Shown here: piece after piece, positions 1,951 to 39,762 of the stretch | Numbering within the stretch: position 1 is the first letter of the stretch | Layout: the number at the start of each line of letters is the position of its first letter | NCBI GenBank assembly: GCA_963169745.1 | Contig: CAUJCU010000020.1 | Span: 1 to 40,000, forward strand | Reading direction: 5' to 3' | Source of the DNA: Bacteroidota bacterium | Lineage (GTDB): Bacteria; Bacteroidota; Bacteroidia; UBA4408 | Length of the DNA: 40,000 bases | Notes under the pieces: model-generated | What the model was told of the DNA's origin: nothing | Databases searched by the model: none | The model's input: the letters and a program-made list of their open reading frames with translations, nothing else | Position numbers and translations under genes: made by a program

Positions 1951-2373
1951 ATGAAAAAAGTTTTATTGCTGACTTCCTTCATTTTGGTACTGGTAATTCC
2001 TGTTTGCGGACAAACAATTATTAGTAATTATAACACTTACAAAAAAATATTTAAAATTGAGAGTGGTGTATTAAGTGACTATAATACTTATAAAAAGCTC
2101 TATAAGTGCGAGAATGGCTTTATTAGTGATTACAATACGTACAAAAAACTATATAAGATAGAAAGTGGTATCTTGTCTGACTATAACACTTACAAAAAAC
2201 TATACAAAATAGAAAGCAACGTTATTAGTGATTACAGCAGCTATAAGAAACTGTATAAAATTGAAGATAATATCATTAGCGACTACCAAACTTATAAGAA
2301 ACTATATAAAATTGAAAGTGCCTATAGTCAATGTGAATTGTTTATGATATTACTAAACCTAGGGTTACTTTAA
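1951..2373 (+). CDS. Small secreted protein of six 17-residue tandem repeats, unknown function
   Basis: I do not recognise a named family. The 140-residue product starts with a signal peptide (MKKVLLLTSFILVLVIPVCG, about 1-20). It then has six back-to-back copies of a 17-residue unit, consensus IxSDYNTYKKLYKIESG, filling residues 23-124, and ends with a short hydrophobic tail (FMILLNLGLL). The spaced Tyr, Lys-Lys and Ile/Leu positions suggest short beta strands in a repetitive fold; that is inference. Cys19 precedes a Gly but the context is a poor lipobox, so export by signal peptidase I is more likely. ATG 1951 is preferred to an in-frame start four codons upstream because it places the charged MKK at the N-terminus. 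A near-consensus -7 box, TAATTTCG, lies at 1922-1929. The gene converges on recG. Confidence 0.8.
   Translation: MKKVLLLTSFILVLVIPVCGQTIISNYNTYKKIFKIESGVLSDYNTYKKLYKCENGFISDYNTYKKLYKIESGILSDYNTYKKLYKIESNVISDYSSYKKLYKIEDNIISDYQTYKKLYKIESAYSQCELFMILLNLGLL
2017..2322 (+). repeat. Six in-frame 51-bp tandem repeats
   Basis: Six units of exactly 51 bases run without spacers and encode the 17-residue repeats of the gene at 1951-2373. The copies differ mainly at third codon positions (for example GACTATAATACTTAT against GATTACAATACGTAC), while the SDYxxYKKLYKIE core is nearly constant. That points to selection on the protein rather than a recent slippage expansion. Confidence 0.93.
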
Positions 2374-34494: not shown

Positions 34495-37400
34495 ATGCTA
34501 TTTATGACTTTTAATAGGATTCTTACACCTATCTTCTTTTTTTACTTACTTACGATGAGCTGCTCTTATTCGTTTGCACAGGTTCGTAAAGAAAGTAGTC
34601 ATTCTACTAAAAATCAACCTATTAATACATCTTCTAAAGAAAAAACGAATACCCTTAAGCAGGCCTATCATATCCGCTGGACCAACCCTCGTGTTTCAGG
34701 TCAGGAAGACGCTCTGGTAAGCTGGCTCAATTTTGAAGGAGCAACTATACACCCGCTCAGCCACTTACCCTACTATACCGGCAGTGCAAAAATCCCATCC
34801 GGATATTACAATGCCGAAATACAACTTACAAATCTTGCTTTTGAACCACTAAATAATCAGGAAAAACAAATAGCCGCTTTATTAACCGATTTGAAAAGTG
34901 AAATTACGCTAACTTCTACCGTGGTTTACTTTAAAAAAGTACCCTCTTTACGATATGATTTTGTTCCCTTACGTATAAATCCACAAAACGGAGTTATTGA
35001 GAAATTAGTTGCTTTTGACCTTGTATTAAGACCAACTTCTTCAGCAAAATCACAAATTAGAAGCCATACCTATGCACATAAGTCGGTACTAAGTGAAGGA
35101 ACCTGGTATCAAATAGGGGTAACAAAAGATGGCATATTTAAACTTGATTATAATTTCTTTAAAAAATTAGGTGCAAGCCCTGCAAATATAGATCCCCGAC
35201 AAGTAAAAATTTACAGTACCGGGGGCGAGCAGCTTCCTTTTATAAACAGTTTAACCCGAACAGATGATTTGCCGGAATGTGCCATCTCATTTGTAGGAGA
35301 AGAAGATGGTGTGTTTAATGAAAGTGATTATGCGCTATTTTTCGGCAAAGCTCCCGTAAGGTGGACAAAAGACAACTCCTGCCTGGGGCTTTCACATAAA
35401 TTACACGATTATACTGATACCACGTATTATTTTATTAATATTGATGGGGCTTCAGGAAAACGTATAAATATGCAAAGTTCTCTAACTCAAGACGCGCAAC
35501 AAAGCGTAAATTCTTTTGATGACTTTGCTTGGTACGAGAATGAAGCTGTAAATGTTGTAAAGAGTGGCCGCCAATGGTTTGGTGAAAAATTTGATGTAAC
35601 AACCAGCTATTCATTTCCTTTTAATTTCCCGAATATTGATGTAACAGCCCCGGCCTTTATTAAAATTCAAACTGCAGCTCGCTCTAACCCTTCAGCTCAA
35701 TTTACCGTAAATTGTGGTGCTTCAAGTTTTAATTTCTCCCCGCCTCCTGTTGCTCTTCAGCCATATTATGCCGATCCGGTAACCATAAGCTCAAGCTGCC
35801 AACCATTTACACCCGATGGAGCTCAGTTAAATGTTGAAGTAAAGTTTACAAAAGCGCCCATGTTTAACAGTGGATATGGATATTTGGATTATATTGAACT
35901 GCGTGTACGCAGGCTCCTAAAATTAGCCGGAAACGAAGTTGCTTTTCGTGATTTTTCATCAAGTGGCCCGGGAAAAATTATAGAGTTTAATATTGCAAAT
36001 GCTACAACCAATACACTAATTTGGGATATTTCCGATCTCCAAAACGTAAAACAAATTCAGGGAAATTTAAACGGGAACCTCTACTCCTTTAAAGATAATG
36101 CCGATACAACGCACGAATACATTGCTTTTAATAATGGAAGCAACGCTATTAAAGAACCTTTTTCTTTGGGTAAAATTGAAAATCAAAATTTGCATGGACT
36201 TGCTACTTATGATATGATTATTGTTAGTCATTCCCTCTTTTTACCGCAAGCAAAACGTTTGTCCGATTTGCATTATGAGCATGATGGGTTAAAATCATTG
36301 GTAGTTACACCACAAGAAATTTACAACGAGTTTTCAGGCGGTCATCAAGATGTTACAGCTATTAAACAATTCTTAAAAATGTTTTACGACAGAGCCGAAA
36401 CTCCCGAAAATATGCCTAAATATTTACTGCTCATGGGCGATGCATCATACAAAAATCGAGGGCGCAGCACCGTAGGAAATACCAATTTTGTTGTCTGTTA
36501 CGAATCAGCAAATGGAGTTTCATATATAAACTCGTATGTTTCTGACGATTATTTTGGTTTGTTAGATGACTCCGAAGGAGAAGGCCTTACCGAACAAATG
36601 GATATTGCTGTAGGACGTATTCCTGTTAAAACTATAGATGAAGCTAAAGCAGTAGTTGATAAAATAAGTGCCTACATGCAACCGCAATCTATTGAAAGCG
36701 CAAACCCCTCATTTTGTGGCACTGCCGGCTCATTTGCAAGTGGCGATTGGCGTAACATATTGTGTTTTGTAGCTGACGATGAAGATCAAAATTTGCATTT
36801 TAATCAGTCTGAAAGACTGGCCAATTATGTAGATACAACCTATAGACAATATAATATTGACAAAATTTATATTGATGCCTTTAAACAACAATCGGCTGCC
36901 GGTGGAGCGCGTTATCCCGATGTAAATACAGCCATCGGCCAACGCGTAAACCGAGGTGCATTAATTATTAACTATACCGGCCATGGAGGCGAAACCGGTT
37001 GGGCACAAGAAAGAATACTGGAAGTAAAAGACATAGAATCATGGAGTAATTCAAACCGCTTACCCTTATTTGTAACGGCAACTTGTGAGTTTAGCCGCTT
37101 TGACGACCCGGGAAGAACCTCAGCCGGAGAAGAAGTGATATTGCGCGCTAATGGTGGGGGTATTGGATTGTTAACAACTACACGATTGGCTTATGCAAAC
37201 TATAACGAAACATTAAACCGTAATTTTTACCAAAATGCTTTCTTAAAAGACTCTATAACGGGACTCTATCCGCGCATAGGTGATATTTGTACAGTTACCA
37301 AAAACAAAACTGCTGCCGTAAGCGGAGGAACCAGCAACCACCGCAATTTTTCCCTTCTTTGCGACCCTGCCCTAAGGCTTCACTACCCTACTTATAAAGT

Positions 37401-38475
37401 CATTACCCAAAGTATCAACAACCAGCCTGTTAGCTTACAAGGCGACACGGTAAAAGCCCTGTCAAAAATAACCGTTAAAGGATATTTGGCTGATAATAAC
37501 GGCACCAAACTAACCAATTTTAACGGTATAGTTTATCCTTCTTTCTTTGACAAATCAAGCACCTTAAAAACATTAGCCAACGACCCGCAATACTCAACAA
37601 TAGCACCTTTTAAATTAAGAAAAAATATTATTTACAGAGGAAAAGCAAGTGTAAACAATGGTGACTTTTCGTTTACCTTTATTGTGCCTAAAGATATTGA
37701 TTACTCCTTTGGTACCGGACGTATAAGCTATTATGCTGCCGATGGTAATAATGATGCCAACGGCTATAACGAAAATTTTATTGTAGGCGGAACCAATAAT
37801 AATGCGCCTGCCGATAATCAAGGGCCTAAAATAGATTTGTATATGAATGAAAAAAACTTTGTAGCGGGCAGCGTTACCAATGAGAGCCCTAATTTATTAG
37901 GAATATTATTTGATGAAAATGGAATCAACACCGTTGGCAACGGTATTGGACACGATTTAATAGCTGTGCTGGATGAAAATACTGAAAAATCAATTGTTTT
38001 GAACGATTATTACCAGTCCGATTTAAACTCTTATCAGCAGGGCACTGTACGCTATCCATTTAACAAAATGAGTGAAGGCCGTCACACACTCACCTTAAAA
38101 GCCTGGGATGTATATAATAACTCCAATTCGGCTGCTACCGATTTTGTTGTTGCAAGCTCAGCAAATATTGCACTGCAGCATGTTTTAAATTACCCTAACC
38201 CATTTACTACCTATACACGCTTTATGTTTGAGCACAACAAGCCCTGCGAAACTCTTGATGTTAGTATTCAAATATTTACCATATCGGGTCATCTAATAAA
38301 AACATTAGAAACTCTTGTAAAATGTGAAGGGTTCAGATCCGAATCCATTACATGGAATGGGCTAGATGAATTTGGAGATAAAATTGGCCGTGGCGTATAT
38401 ATTTATCGCCTAAAAGTAACTGCTCCTGATGGCAATTGGGCAGATAAGTATGAGAAACTTGTAGTTTTGAAATAA
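34495..38475 (+). CDS. porU: PorU, type IX secretion system sortase
   Basis: PorU is the outer-membrane C25 cysteine protease that removes the sorting tail from T9SS cargo and attaches anionic LPS where that is made. The 1326-residue protein has a signal peptide (about 1-29, ending SYSFAQ). A long beta-rich N-terminal part precedes the gingipain-like domain at about 560-960. The catalytic pair should be His830 (NYTGHGGETGW) and Cys864 (ATCEFSRFDDPG). A C-terminal domain resembling a sorting tail (LNYPNPFTTYTRFMF to GRGVYIYRLKV) ends it; PorU keeps this domain. A weak -7-like AACCTTTG lies at 34473-34480. porV follows 60 bases later. Confidence 0.95.
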   Translation: MLFMTFNRILTPIFFFYLLTMSCSYSFAQVRKESSHSTKNQPINTSSKEKTNTLKQAYHIRWTNPRVSGQEDALVSWLNFEGATIHPLSHLPYYTGSAKIPSGYYNAEIQLTNLAFEPLNNQEKQIAALLTDLKSEITLTSTVVYFKKVPSLRYDFVPLRINPQNGVIEKLVAFDLVLRPTSSAKSQIRSHTYAHKSVLSEGTWYQIGVTKDGIFKLDYNFFKKLGASPANIDPRQVKIYSTGGEQLPFINSLTRTDDLPECAISFVGEEDGVFNESDYALFFGKAPVRWTKDNSCLGLSHKLHDYTDTTYYFINIDGASGKRINMQSSLTQDAQQSVNSFDDFAWYENEAVNVVKSGRQWFGEKFDVTTSYSFPFNFPNIDVTAPAFIKIQTAARSNPSAQFTVNCGASSFNFSPPPVALQPYYADPVTISSSCQPFTPDGAQLNVEVKFTKAPMFNSGYGYLDYIELRVRRLLKLAGNEVAFRDFSSSGPGKIIEFNIANATTNTLIWDISDLQNVKQIQGNLNGNLYSFKDNADTTHEYIAFNNGSNAIKEPFSLGKIENQNLHGLATYDMIIVSHSLFLPQAKRLSDLHYEHDGLKSLVVTPQEIYNEFSGGHQDVTAIKQFLKMFYDRAETPENMPKYLLLMGDASYKNRGRSTVGNTNFVVCYESANGVSYINSYVSDDYFGLLDDSEGEGLTEQMDIAVGRIPVKTIDEAKAVVDKISAYMQPQSIESANPSFCGTAGSFASGDWRNILCFVADDEDQNLHFNQSERLANYVDTTYRQYNIDKIYIDAFKQQSAAGGARYPDVNTAIGQRVNRGALIINYTGHGGETGWAQERILEVKDIESWSNSNRLPLFVTATCEFSRFDDPGRTSAGEEVILRANGGGIGLLTTTRLAYANYNETLNRNFYQNAFLKDSITGLYPRIGDICTVTKNKTAAVSGGTSNHRNFSLLCDPALRLHYPTYKVITQSINNQPVSLQGDTVKALSKITVKGYLADNNGTKLTNFNGIVYPSFFDKSSTLKTLANDPQYSTIAPFKLRKNIIYRGKASVNNGDFSFTFIVPKDIDYSFGTGRISYYAADGNNDANGYNENFIVGGTNNNAPADNQGPKIDLYMNEKNFVAGSVTNESPNLLGILFDENGINTVGNGIGHDLIAVLDENTEKSIVLNDYYQSDLNSYQQGTVRYPFNKMSEGRHTLTLKAWDVYNNSNSAATDFVVASSANIALQHVLNYPNPFTTYTRFMFEHNKPCETLDVSIQIFTISGHLIKTLETLVKCEGFRSESITWNGLDEFGDKIGRGVYIYRLKVTAPDGNWADKYEKLVVLK

Positions 38476-38503
38476 TTAAGTACTCTTTTTATTGTATATT
38501 TTA

Positions 38504-38511
38504 TAAATTTG
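38504..38511 (+). promoter_or_regulatory. -7 promoter box upstream of porV
   Basis: TAAATTTG matches TAnnTTTG exactly, 24 bases before the ATG at 38536. No -33 TTG sits at the usual distance. It could give porV (and ispF) expression independent of porU. Confidence 0.5.
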
Positions 38512-38535
38512 CACCCCCTTAACATACATTTTTGC

Positions 38536-39762
38536 ATGAAAAAATATTTTTTGTTATCGTTACTTGTTTCTGTAGTCTTTCTCCCTGCTGCAAAAGCACA
38601 AAAACAAGCAACATCACTTACCGGACAACAAATAAAACTAAATACCATAACCACTTCTGTACCATTTCTGTCTATTGGCCCCGACTCTAGAGCTGGTGGA
38701 ATGGGCGATTGCGGTGCAGCCTCTTCGCCCGATATCAATTCAATGCATTGGAATGCCTCCAAATATGCCTTTATGGATAGAAAAATGGGGTTTGCATTAA
38801 ACTACACCCCCTGGCTCAGAAGATTGGTTCCAGATATTAATTACTCTTATTTAAGTGGTTATTACAAACTAAACAAAAATCAAGCTATTGCAAGTACACT
38901 CCGCTATTTCTCTTTGGGAGATATAGCTTTCACAGATGTAAATGGAAATCCTATTGGACAATTCCGGCCTAATGAATTTGCATTGGATGTGGCCTATAGC
39001 CGTAAATTAAGCGAGCGCTTTAGCACTGCAATAGCCTTACGCTATATTTATTCTAATTTAACCGGCAGCATTAATATTGCCGGGGCTAATACCAAAGCAG
39101 GGCAAGCAGTAGCTTCTGATATTAGTGCTTATTACCGTAATGATGAAATAACCATGGGGGGCAAAAAAACAACGTACTCATTTGGCATTAATATTTCAAA
39201 TGTCGGTTCTAAAATTTCCTATAGCGAAACTGCTGTAAGAGACTTTATTCCACAAAATTTAAAAATAGGAAACAACCTAACTTGGAATTTAGACGAATAC
39301 AACACAATTTCAGTAATGGTTGATATTAACAAACTACTTGTTCCATCGCCCCCTGAAGTTGCACGCGACTCCACCGGAAGTCCTTTATACGGAGCCGATG
39401 GAAATTTAATGCTCAGCTCTGGAAAACCATCTAATGTAGGTACTATAACAGGCATCGTACAATCTTTTTATGATGCACCGGGAGGCTTTAAAGAAGAATT
39501 TAGAGAAATAATGTGGGGTACAGCCTTTGAATATTGGTATGATAATTTATTTGCTTTTCGTACAGGATATTTTCATGAGGCAGCCTCTAAAGGAAACCGC
39601 CAGTATTTTAATATTGGAGCCGGTTTACGTTACAATACATTTGGTATTGACTTTGCTTATTTAATTCCAACCGTAACACAAAACCCTTTGCAAAACACCT
39701 TGCGCTTTACCTTGTTGTTTAACTTCGAATCATCGAAACCAACTAATAAAGAAACCAACTAA
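38536..39762 (+). CDS. porV: PorV (LptO), type IX secretion outer-membrane shuttle protein
   Basis: PorV is a 14-stranded outer-membrane barrel that takes cargo from the SprA translocon to PorU. The 408-residue protein has a signal peptide (MKKYFLLSLLVSVVFLPAAKAQ). The family signature follows: VPFLSIGPDSRAGGMGDCGA then ASSPDINSMHWNASKYAF. Beta strands run to a C-terminal RFTLLFNFE. A frame start nine codons upstream (TTG) was rejected in favour of ATG 38536, where the signal begins and which lies downstream of the predicted promoter. Its TAA is directly followed by the ispF ATG. Confidence 0.95.
   Translation: MKKYFLLSLLVSVVFLPAAKAQKQATSLTGQQIKLNTITTSVPFLSIGPDSRAGGMGDCGAASSPDINSMHWNASKYAFMDRKMGFALNYTPWLRRLVPDINYSYLSGYYKLNKNQAIASTLRYFSLGDIAFTDVNGNPIGQFRPNEFALDVAYSRKLSERFSTAIALRYIYSNLTGSINIAGANTKAGQAVASDISAYYRNDEITMGGKKTTYSFGINISNVGSKISYSETAVRDFIPQNLKIGNNLTWNLDEYNTISVMVDINKLLVPSPPEVARDSTGSPLYGADGNLMLSSGKPSNVGTITGIVQSFYDAPGGFKEEFREIMWGTAFEYWYDNLFAFRTGYFHEAASKGNRQYFNIGAGLRYNTFGIDFAYLIPTVTQNPLQNTLRFTLLFNFESSKPTNKETN

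Follow-up and report, generated by a model that had tools for sequence, protein, structure and literature searches.

A gene within the 40,000-nucleotide stretch analysed here (contig CAUJCU010000020.1 of a Bacteroidota bacterium, lineage UBA4408 of the Bacteroidia; hereafter the window) very probably encodes a periplasmic six-fold beta-flower, a reading that leans on the predicted structure. The fold belongs to the Tubby-like Pfam clan and was named only recently; it lacks a functional characterisation, and we regard the protein as one of its compact and divergent variants.

The gene and its repeat units

The first-pass annotation had described six uninterrupted 17-residue units between a signal peptide and a hydrophobic tail, and the open reading frame confirms this arrangement, with six in-frame units without gaps at residues 22–123 and the tail at residues 124–140 (Table 1). 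The same 51-base array was found independently by Tandem Repeats Finder at 2019–2320, and residues of the window protein spaced 17 apart match at 61 of 86 positions, compared with a mean of 8.7 and a maximum of 20 in 20,000 shuffles. The count of six units of 17 thus stood, but the motif of which they had been called copies, IxSDYNTYKKLYKIESG, is a consensus, since identity between units ranges from 9/17 to 15/17.

Table 1. The beta-flower-like gene and its parts (window positions)
Feature	Positions	Strand	Basis
Whole gene, ATG to stop; compact six-fold beta-flower-like protein, exported, 140 aa	1951..2373	+	ORF
Signal peptide MKKVLLLTSFILVLVIPVCGQ, residues 1–21	1951..2013	+	Sequence; pLDDT < 50 at residues 1–19; cleavage site putative
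Unit 1 TIISNYNTYKKIFKIES; strand b, 5-residue loop, strand a	2014..2064	+	AF2 and repeat alignment
Unit 2 GVLSDYNTYKKLYKCEN	2065..2115	+	AF2 and repeat alignment
Unit 3 GFISDYNTYKKLYKIES	2116..2166	+	AF2 and repeat alignment
Unit 4 GILSDYNTYKKLYKIES	2167..2217	+	AF2 and repeat alignment
Unit 5 NVISDYSSYKKLYKIED	2218..2268	+	AF2 and repeat alignment
Unit 6 NIISDYQTYKKLYKIES; last strand would pair with first strand of unit 1, putatively closing the ring	2269..2319	+	AF2 and repeat alignment
C-terminal hydrophobic tail AYSQCELFMILLNLGLL; helix predicted at 127–136, likely plug of the barrel channel	2320..2370	+	AF2; likeness to L040 tail

The signal-peptide-like start supports the earlier description of the protein as exported, and from its sequence we infer that the protein is exported and its signal peptide cleaved off. 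The window protein has a probable signal peptidase I site, VCG↓Q, and the signal peptides of relatives end in ...AQ. No canonical lipobox was found in the segment V-I-P-V-C-G-Q, in which A, G or S is missing ahead of the cysteine, and lipoprotein models score below their cut-offs (LPAM_1 10 bits, cut-off 20; the NCBIfam lipoprotein signal 14.2, cut-off 35). Since a signal peptide is present without a lipobox, a soluble periplasmic protein is most likely.

Predicted structure and possible ligands

The AF2 model, built from a 5-row alignment, has a mean pLDDT of 88.7 (87.8–88.7 across all five models), with residues 21–140 at 93–98, or about 96. It contains twelve short strands arranged as six hairpins (22–26, 32–37, 40–43 and so on to 117–121) and a helix at residues 127–136, and so supports, as a prediction, the suggestion of a closed beta repeat made from the sequence. 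This predicted twelve-strand, six-hairpin arrangement is that of the six-fold beta-flowers, in which 12 strands surround a C-terminal hydrophobic helix in many members (PMC10584680). This alignment is shallow, and repetitive sequences can yield closed rings at too high a confidence. As a control, we modelled a bona fide PF21786 member from the same genus (L024) together with 12 other members, and the same hairpins of 6-residue strand, 2-residue turn and 4-residue strand were predicted along with the C-terminal helix, the sole difference in pattern being outer loops of 8 residues in L024 and 5 in the window protein.

VIA-align gave 1zxu, a Tubby-like structure that has been compared with beta-flowers (PMC10584680), as the best match of both models, with Z 8.4 for the window protein (rmsd 4.2, 106 aligned, residues 17–138; next Z 4.3) and Z 8.6 over 108 residues for L024 (next Z 2.1), although by the tool's own caveat a Z of 7–8 may be a chance best match. 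By this match the predicted model has the barrel-plus-helix form of Tubby-like proteins, and ring closure in the model is supported by the alignment. The Tubby-like C-terminal domain/scramblase superfamily (1zxu, Arabidopsis At5g01750) shares with the window model a 12-stranded barrel and a hydrophobic helix that the barrel would surround, whereas the window protein has far shorter strands and loops and near-identical tandem repeats and is exported and bacterial; the entry of the helix in beta-flowers also differs from that in Tubby-like domains (PMC10584680). Foldseek with the window model gave no match to PDB or viral entries at E below 0.001, and the DCAF1 WD40 propellers that it returned were dropped as partial only (TM about 0.25, rmsd over 10). 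The hairpin tips of the window protein read E-S-G, E-N-G, E-S-G, E-S-N, E-D-N and E-S-A; compared with the semi-conserved [DNEQ]xxG found at the hairpin tip of beta-flowers (Durairaj et al. 2023, PMC10584680), the acidic residue is retained, but the G lies one position closer and is missing in three of the six.

If the predicted fold is correct, then each 17-residue unit would form two strands, of 4 and then 6 residues, separated by a Tyr/Lys loop of 5, with 2-residue tight turns joining the units, and each repeat would supply one strand of a hairpin and one of the next. Since the frame opens with a strand of type b and closes with one of type a in the AF2 model, the ends could pair and the ring could close. 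The twelve short antiparallel strands would then close into a shallow barrel, with its channel filled by the hydrophobic C-terminal helix, as the fold of Tubby-like domains and other beta-flowers suggests.

The outer loops (YNTYK) carry tyrosines and a lysine on one rim, and the net charge of the window protein is +5. A rim of six Tyr-x-x-Tyr-Lys loops might dock the protein onto a ligand that is repetitive or anionic, for example the head groups of lipids on a periplasmic membrane face, which is our best functional guess and a tentative one. Relatives do not conserve the charge (L008 −3, L010 −2), so a net positive charge is not family-wide and the idea of an anionic ligand is weakened. It is possible, at a similarly low probability, that the protein acts by analogy as a Tubby-like lipid binder or scramblase, with the basic aromatic rim binding anionic phospholipid or lipid A head groups and the helix either lending stability to the barrel or entering the membrane; such a claim about function is compatible with the beta-flower reading. 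The fold match to 1zxu, the Tyr-Lys ending of every loop and the charge of +5 speak for it, and Tubby-like proteins bind phosphoinositides or act in scrambling, while some flower loops have basic residues (Durairaj 2023, PMC10584680). However, a fold in common does not establish function, the variable charge of L008 and L010 counts against it, and no lipid-metabolism neighbour was found.

The tail is strongly hydrophobic, and membrane association is possible for some beta-flowers (PMC10584680), so that it might be a sorting signal or a second anchor in the membrane and not a barrel plug. We consider this quite unlikely, since the AF2 helix of about 10 residues is too short for a membrane span and is predicted at high confidence together with the barrel, and relatives also carry hydrophobic tails of similar length.

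Family placement

The beta-flower reading has to be reconciled with the earlier view that the protein matches no named family. That view holds for direct sequence search: in Pfam no beta-flower match was found even at E 10, PF21786 (cut-off 34 bits) and PF21785 (38 bits) being both without a match, and searches of NCBIfam and PDB sequences gave nothing relevant. The best Pfam match, ZW10_C2 at 17.7 bits (cut-off 27), is attributable to chance, and the septoil-knot family (DUF6150), RHS and MORN repeats, all considered as candidates, are unsupported by the searches with the window protein. The PF21786 model likewise finds no match in the protein's own genome. The view does not hold once the predicted fold and bridging relatives are considered, which place the protein with the six-fold beta-flowers.

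We discarded hhalign runs that included signal peptides, as these contribute to the score. A profile of the mature window protein and L008 scored 33.7 against PF21786 members, which none of 60 period-preserving shuffles reached, and a profile of the window protein and the five-unit relative P0002 scored 12.0, with 13 of 60 shuffles as high. L008, with six 17-residue units, scores 21.6 bits with PF21786 and P0002 scores 16.5 bits with PF21785, neither reaching its cut-off. L010, which is weakly matched by the window protein and P0002 profile, has six 17-residue units of different sequence and scores 113 bits with PF21785, above the cut-off of 38. The tail SAYSQCELFMILLNLGLL resembles those of two proteins above the PF21786 cut-off, L040 (score reached by 0 of 2,000 shuffles) and L036 (4 of 2,000, a figure weaker than it appears since nineteen tails were tried).

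Bflower_3 (PF21786, CL0395) shares with the window protein six hairpins, the 6/2/4 strand-turn-strand pattern, the C-terminal hydrophobic helix, 1zxu as best PDB match and, in most sampled members, a signal peptide; the window protein differs in its units of 17 rather than usually 19–21 residues, its outer loops of 5 rather than 8 residues, its unlike unit sequence and its position below Pfam detection. Bflower_2 (PF21785, five-fold, represented by L010 and by L013 below threshold) also has a signal peptide, 16–17-residue units and a hydrophobic tail, but its unit GKIxSDGxIRNxSYSMI is unlike that of the window protein, and BLASTP between the window protein and L013 was not significant.

If the protein were instead an unrelated repeat, such as an open beta-solenoid or a fibre- or adhesin-like stack, then its flower likeness would come from AF2 closing regular hairpins into rings, which the shallow alignment and the lack of a direct Pfam match or a significant Foldseek match would allow. 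This is very unlikely, as the unit number is six (five in P0002 relatives) and not open-ended, the helical tail resembles PF21786 tails, all five models have mean pLDDT values of 87.8–88.7, and the strand lengths and best PDB match are common to the control flower L024.

Distribution, selection and implications

The gene is single-copy in its own genome and is missing from three genomes of the same genus and four others of the same family. Among 395 genomes of the class, profile A1 recovered, besides the window protein, L008, L010 and three near-identical 119-aa five-unit proteins of one genus, one of them from a genome that corresponds to the public Bacteroidetes MAG ZE-Jul18-35; it also matched two proteins that by eye are of the TPR type. 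The clearest sequence relatives are rare in Bacteroidia, occurring in one other genus and one genome with 5 or 6 units. The repeat count in relatives, a check that the first-pass annotation had proposed, is 6 units, or 5 in P0002 relatives, with the frame kept, and relatives in other families retain frame, repeat, signal peptide and tail. No relatives of the window protein were found in the viral collection, phage records or plasmids. Weak matches of the genome search (L003, L009, L011 and also L004, an unrelated protein by sequence) are due to chance or are unrelated proteins (TPR and others). PF21786 is above cut-off in 34 of the 395 class genomes, and 20-residue PF21786 flowers are present in two same-genus genomes and missing from the window genome.

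The window gene lies between a TonB-type gene and a convergent recG. What lies beyond recG is different in every same-genus genome, the position next to it is not conserved in the genus, and no neighbour common to six-fold flowers was found, so the neighbourhood assigns no function by association.

Several other flower-like genes were seen in these genomes. The second of the window genome (L013:1429-1821; G000:C21, about 121174-121482) scores 33 bits with PF21785, cut-off 38, and lies 11 bases downstream of a gene that by eye resembles the outer-membrane FadL/OmpP1 type; a PorP/SprF-like gene precedes the L010 flower by the same 11 bases, and the five-unit flower of L006 is beside a PorV-like gene on the opposite strand. 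At L037:1479-2778 a flower of 20-residue units with no evident signal peptide is fused in frame to a long C-terminal part that by eye ends in an apparent type IX secretion sorting domain. L015:1426-1716, which starts 3 bases after a KAP-like NTPase frame, encodes a flower-like protein of 96 aa that has about four units and no signal peptide; it scores 29.6 bits with PF21785 and 20.7 bits with PF21784, in neither case reaching the cut-off. Two PF21786 matches overlap in different frames at G112:C1:826063-826444, an arrangement that points to a frameshift or a misassembly in this flower gene. At 34495-39762 the window also contains a PorU-like gene of peptidase family C25 and, after it, a PorV gene, and with these two genes a type IX secretion system is likely in the organism.

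Differences between the six units had been described as mainly silent and as implying selection for the repeat sequence, and codon comparison agrees on both points: pooled over all pairs, pS is 0.99 and pN 0.18 (ratio 0.19), and identity at codon positions 1, 2 and 3 is 0.77, 0.83 and 0.44. The petal residues are held by selection, and the silent sites have drifted to saturation. Saturated silent sites combined with conserved residues mean that the copies are old at the DNA level and not products of recent DNA duplication. In every other flower gene examined, pS also exceeds pN between adjacent units, more weakly in irregular ones. Neighbouring units of L016, L017, L032 and other PF21786 loci are up to 87% alike, yet pS is 0.66–0.83; the unit sequence of these loci varies between species, and the petals within a gene appear to change jointly, with no recent duplication of the DNA. 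A functionless ORF, either of low complexity or produced by a recent tandem duplication, would suit the gene's absence from three same-genus genomes and the unconserved gene beside recG in the family, but this reading has a negligible probability given the saturated silent sites, the pN/pS of 0.19 and the retention of frame, repeat, signal peptide and tail in relatives from other families.

As a probable six-fold beta-flower, the window protein indicates that compact members escape the Pfam beta-flower models. It is among the more regular of these proteins, with about 119 mature residues, six near-identical petals and high AF2 confidence, and offers a natural model of six-fold repeat design. 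The PDB sequence search found no solved beta-flower and the literature searched held no functional study of one; the regularity, small size and high AF2 confidence of the window protein recommend it for a first structure and binding test. It might represent a distinct compact subfamily whose petals have 17 residues and whose six-fold Tyr/Lys rim binds a repetitive ligand, anionic lipid or another, in the Bacteroidota periplasm, a full combination that we regard as unlikely. If that were true, then it would be the first of the beta-flowers to have an assigned role and would be the functional counterpart, in bacteria, of the Tubby-like lipid binders.
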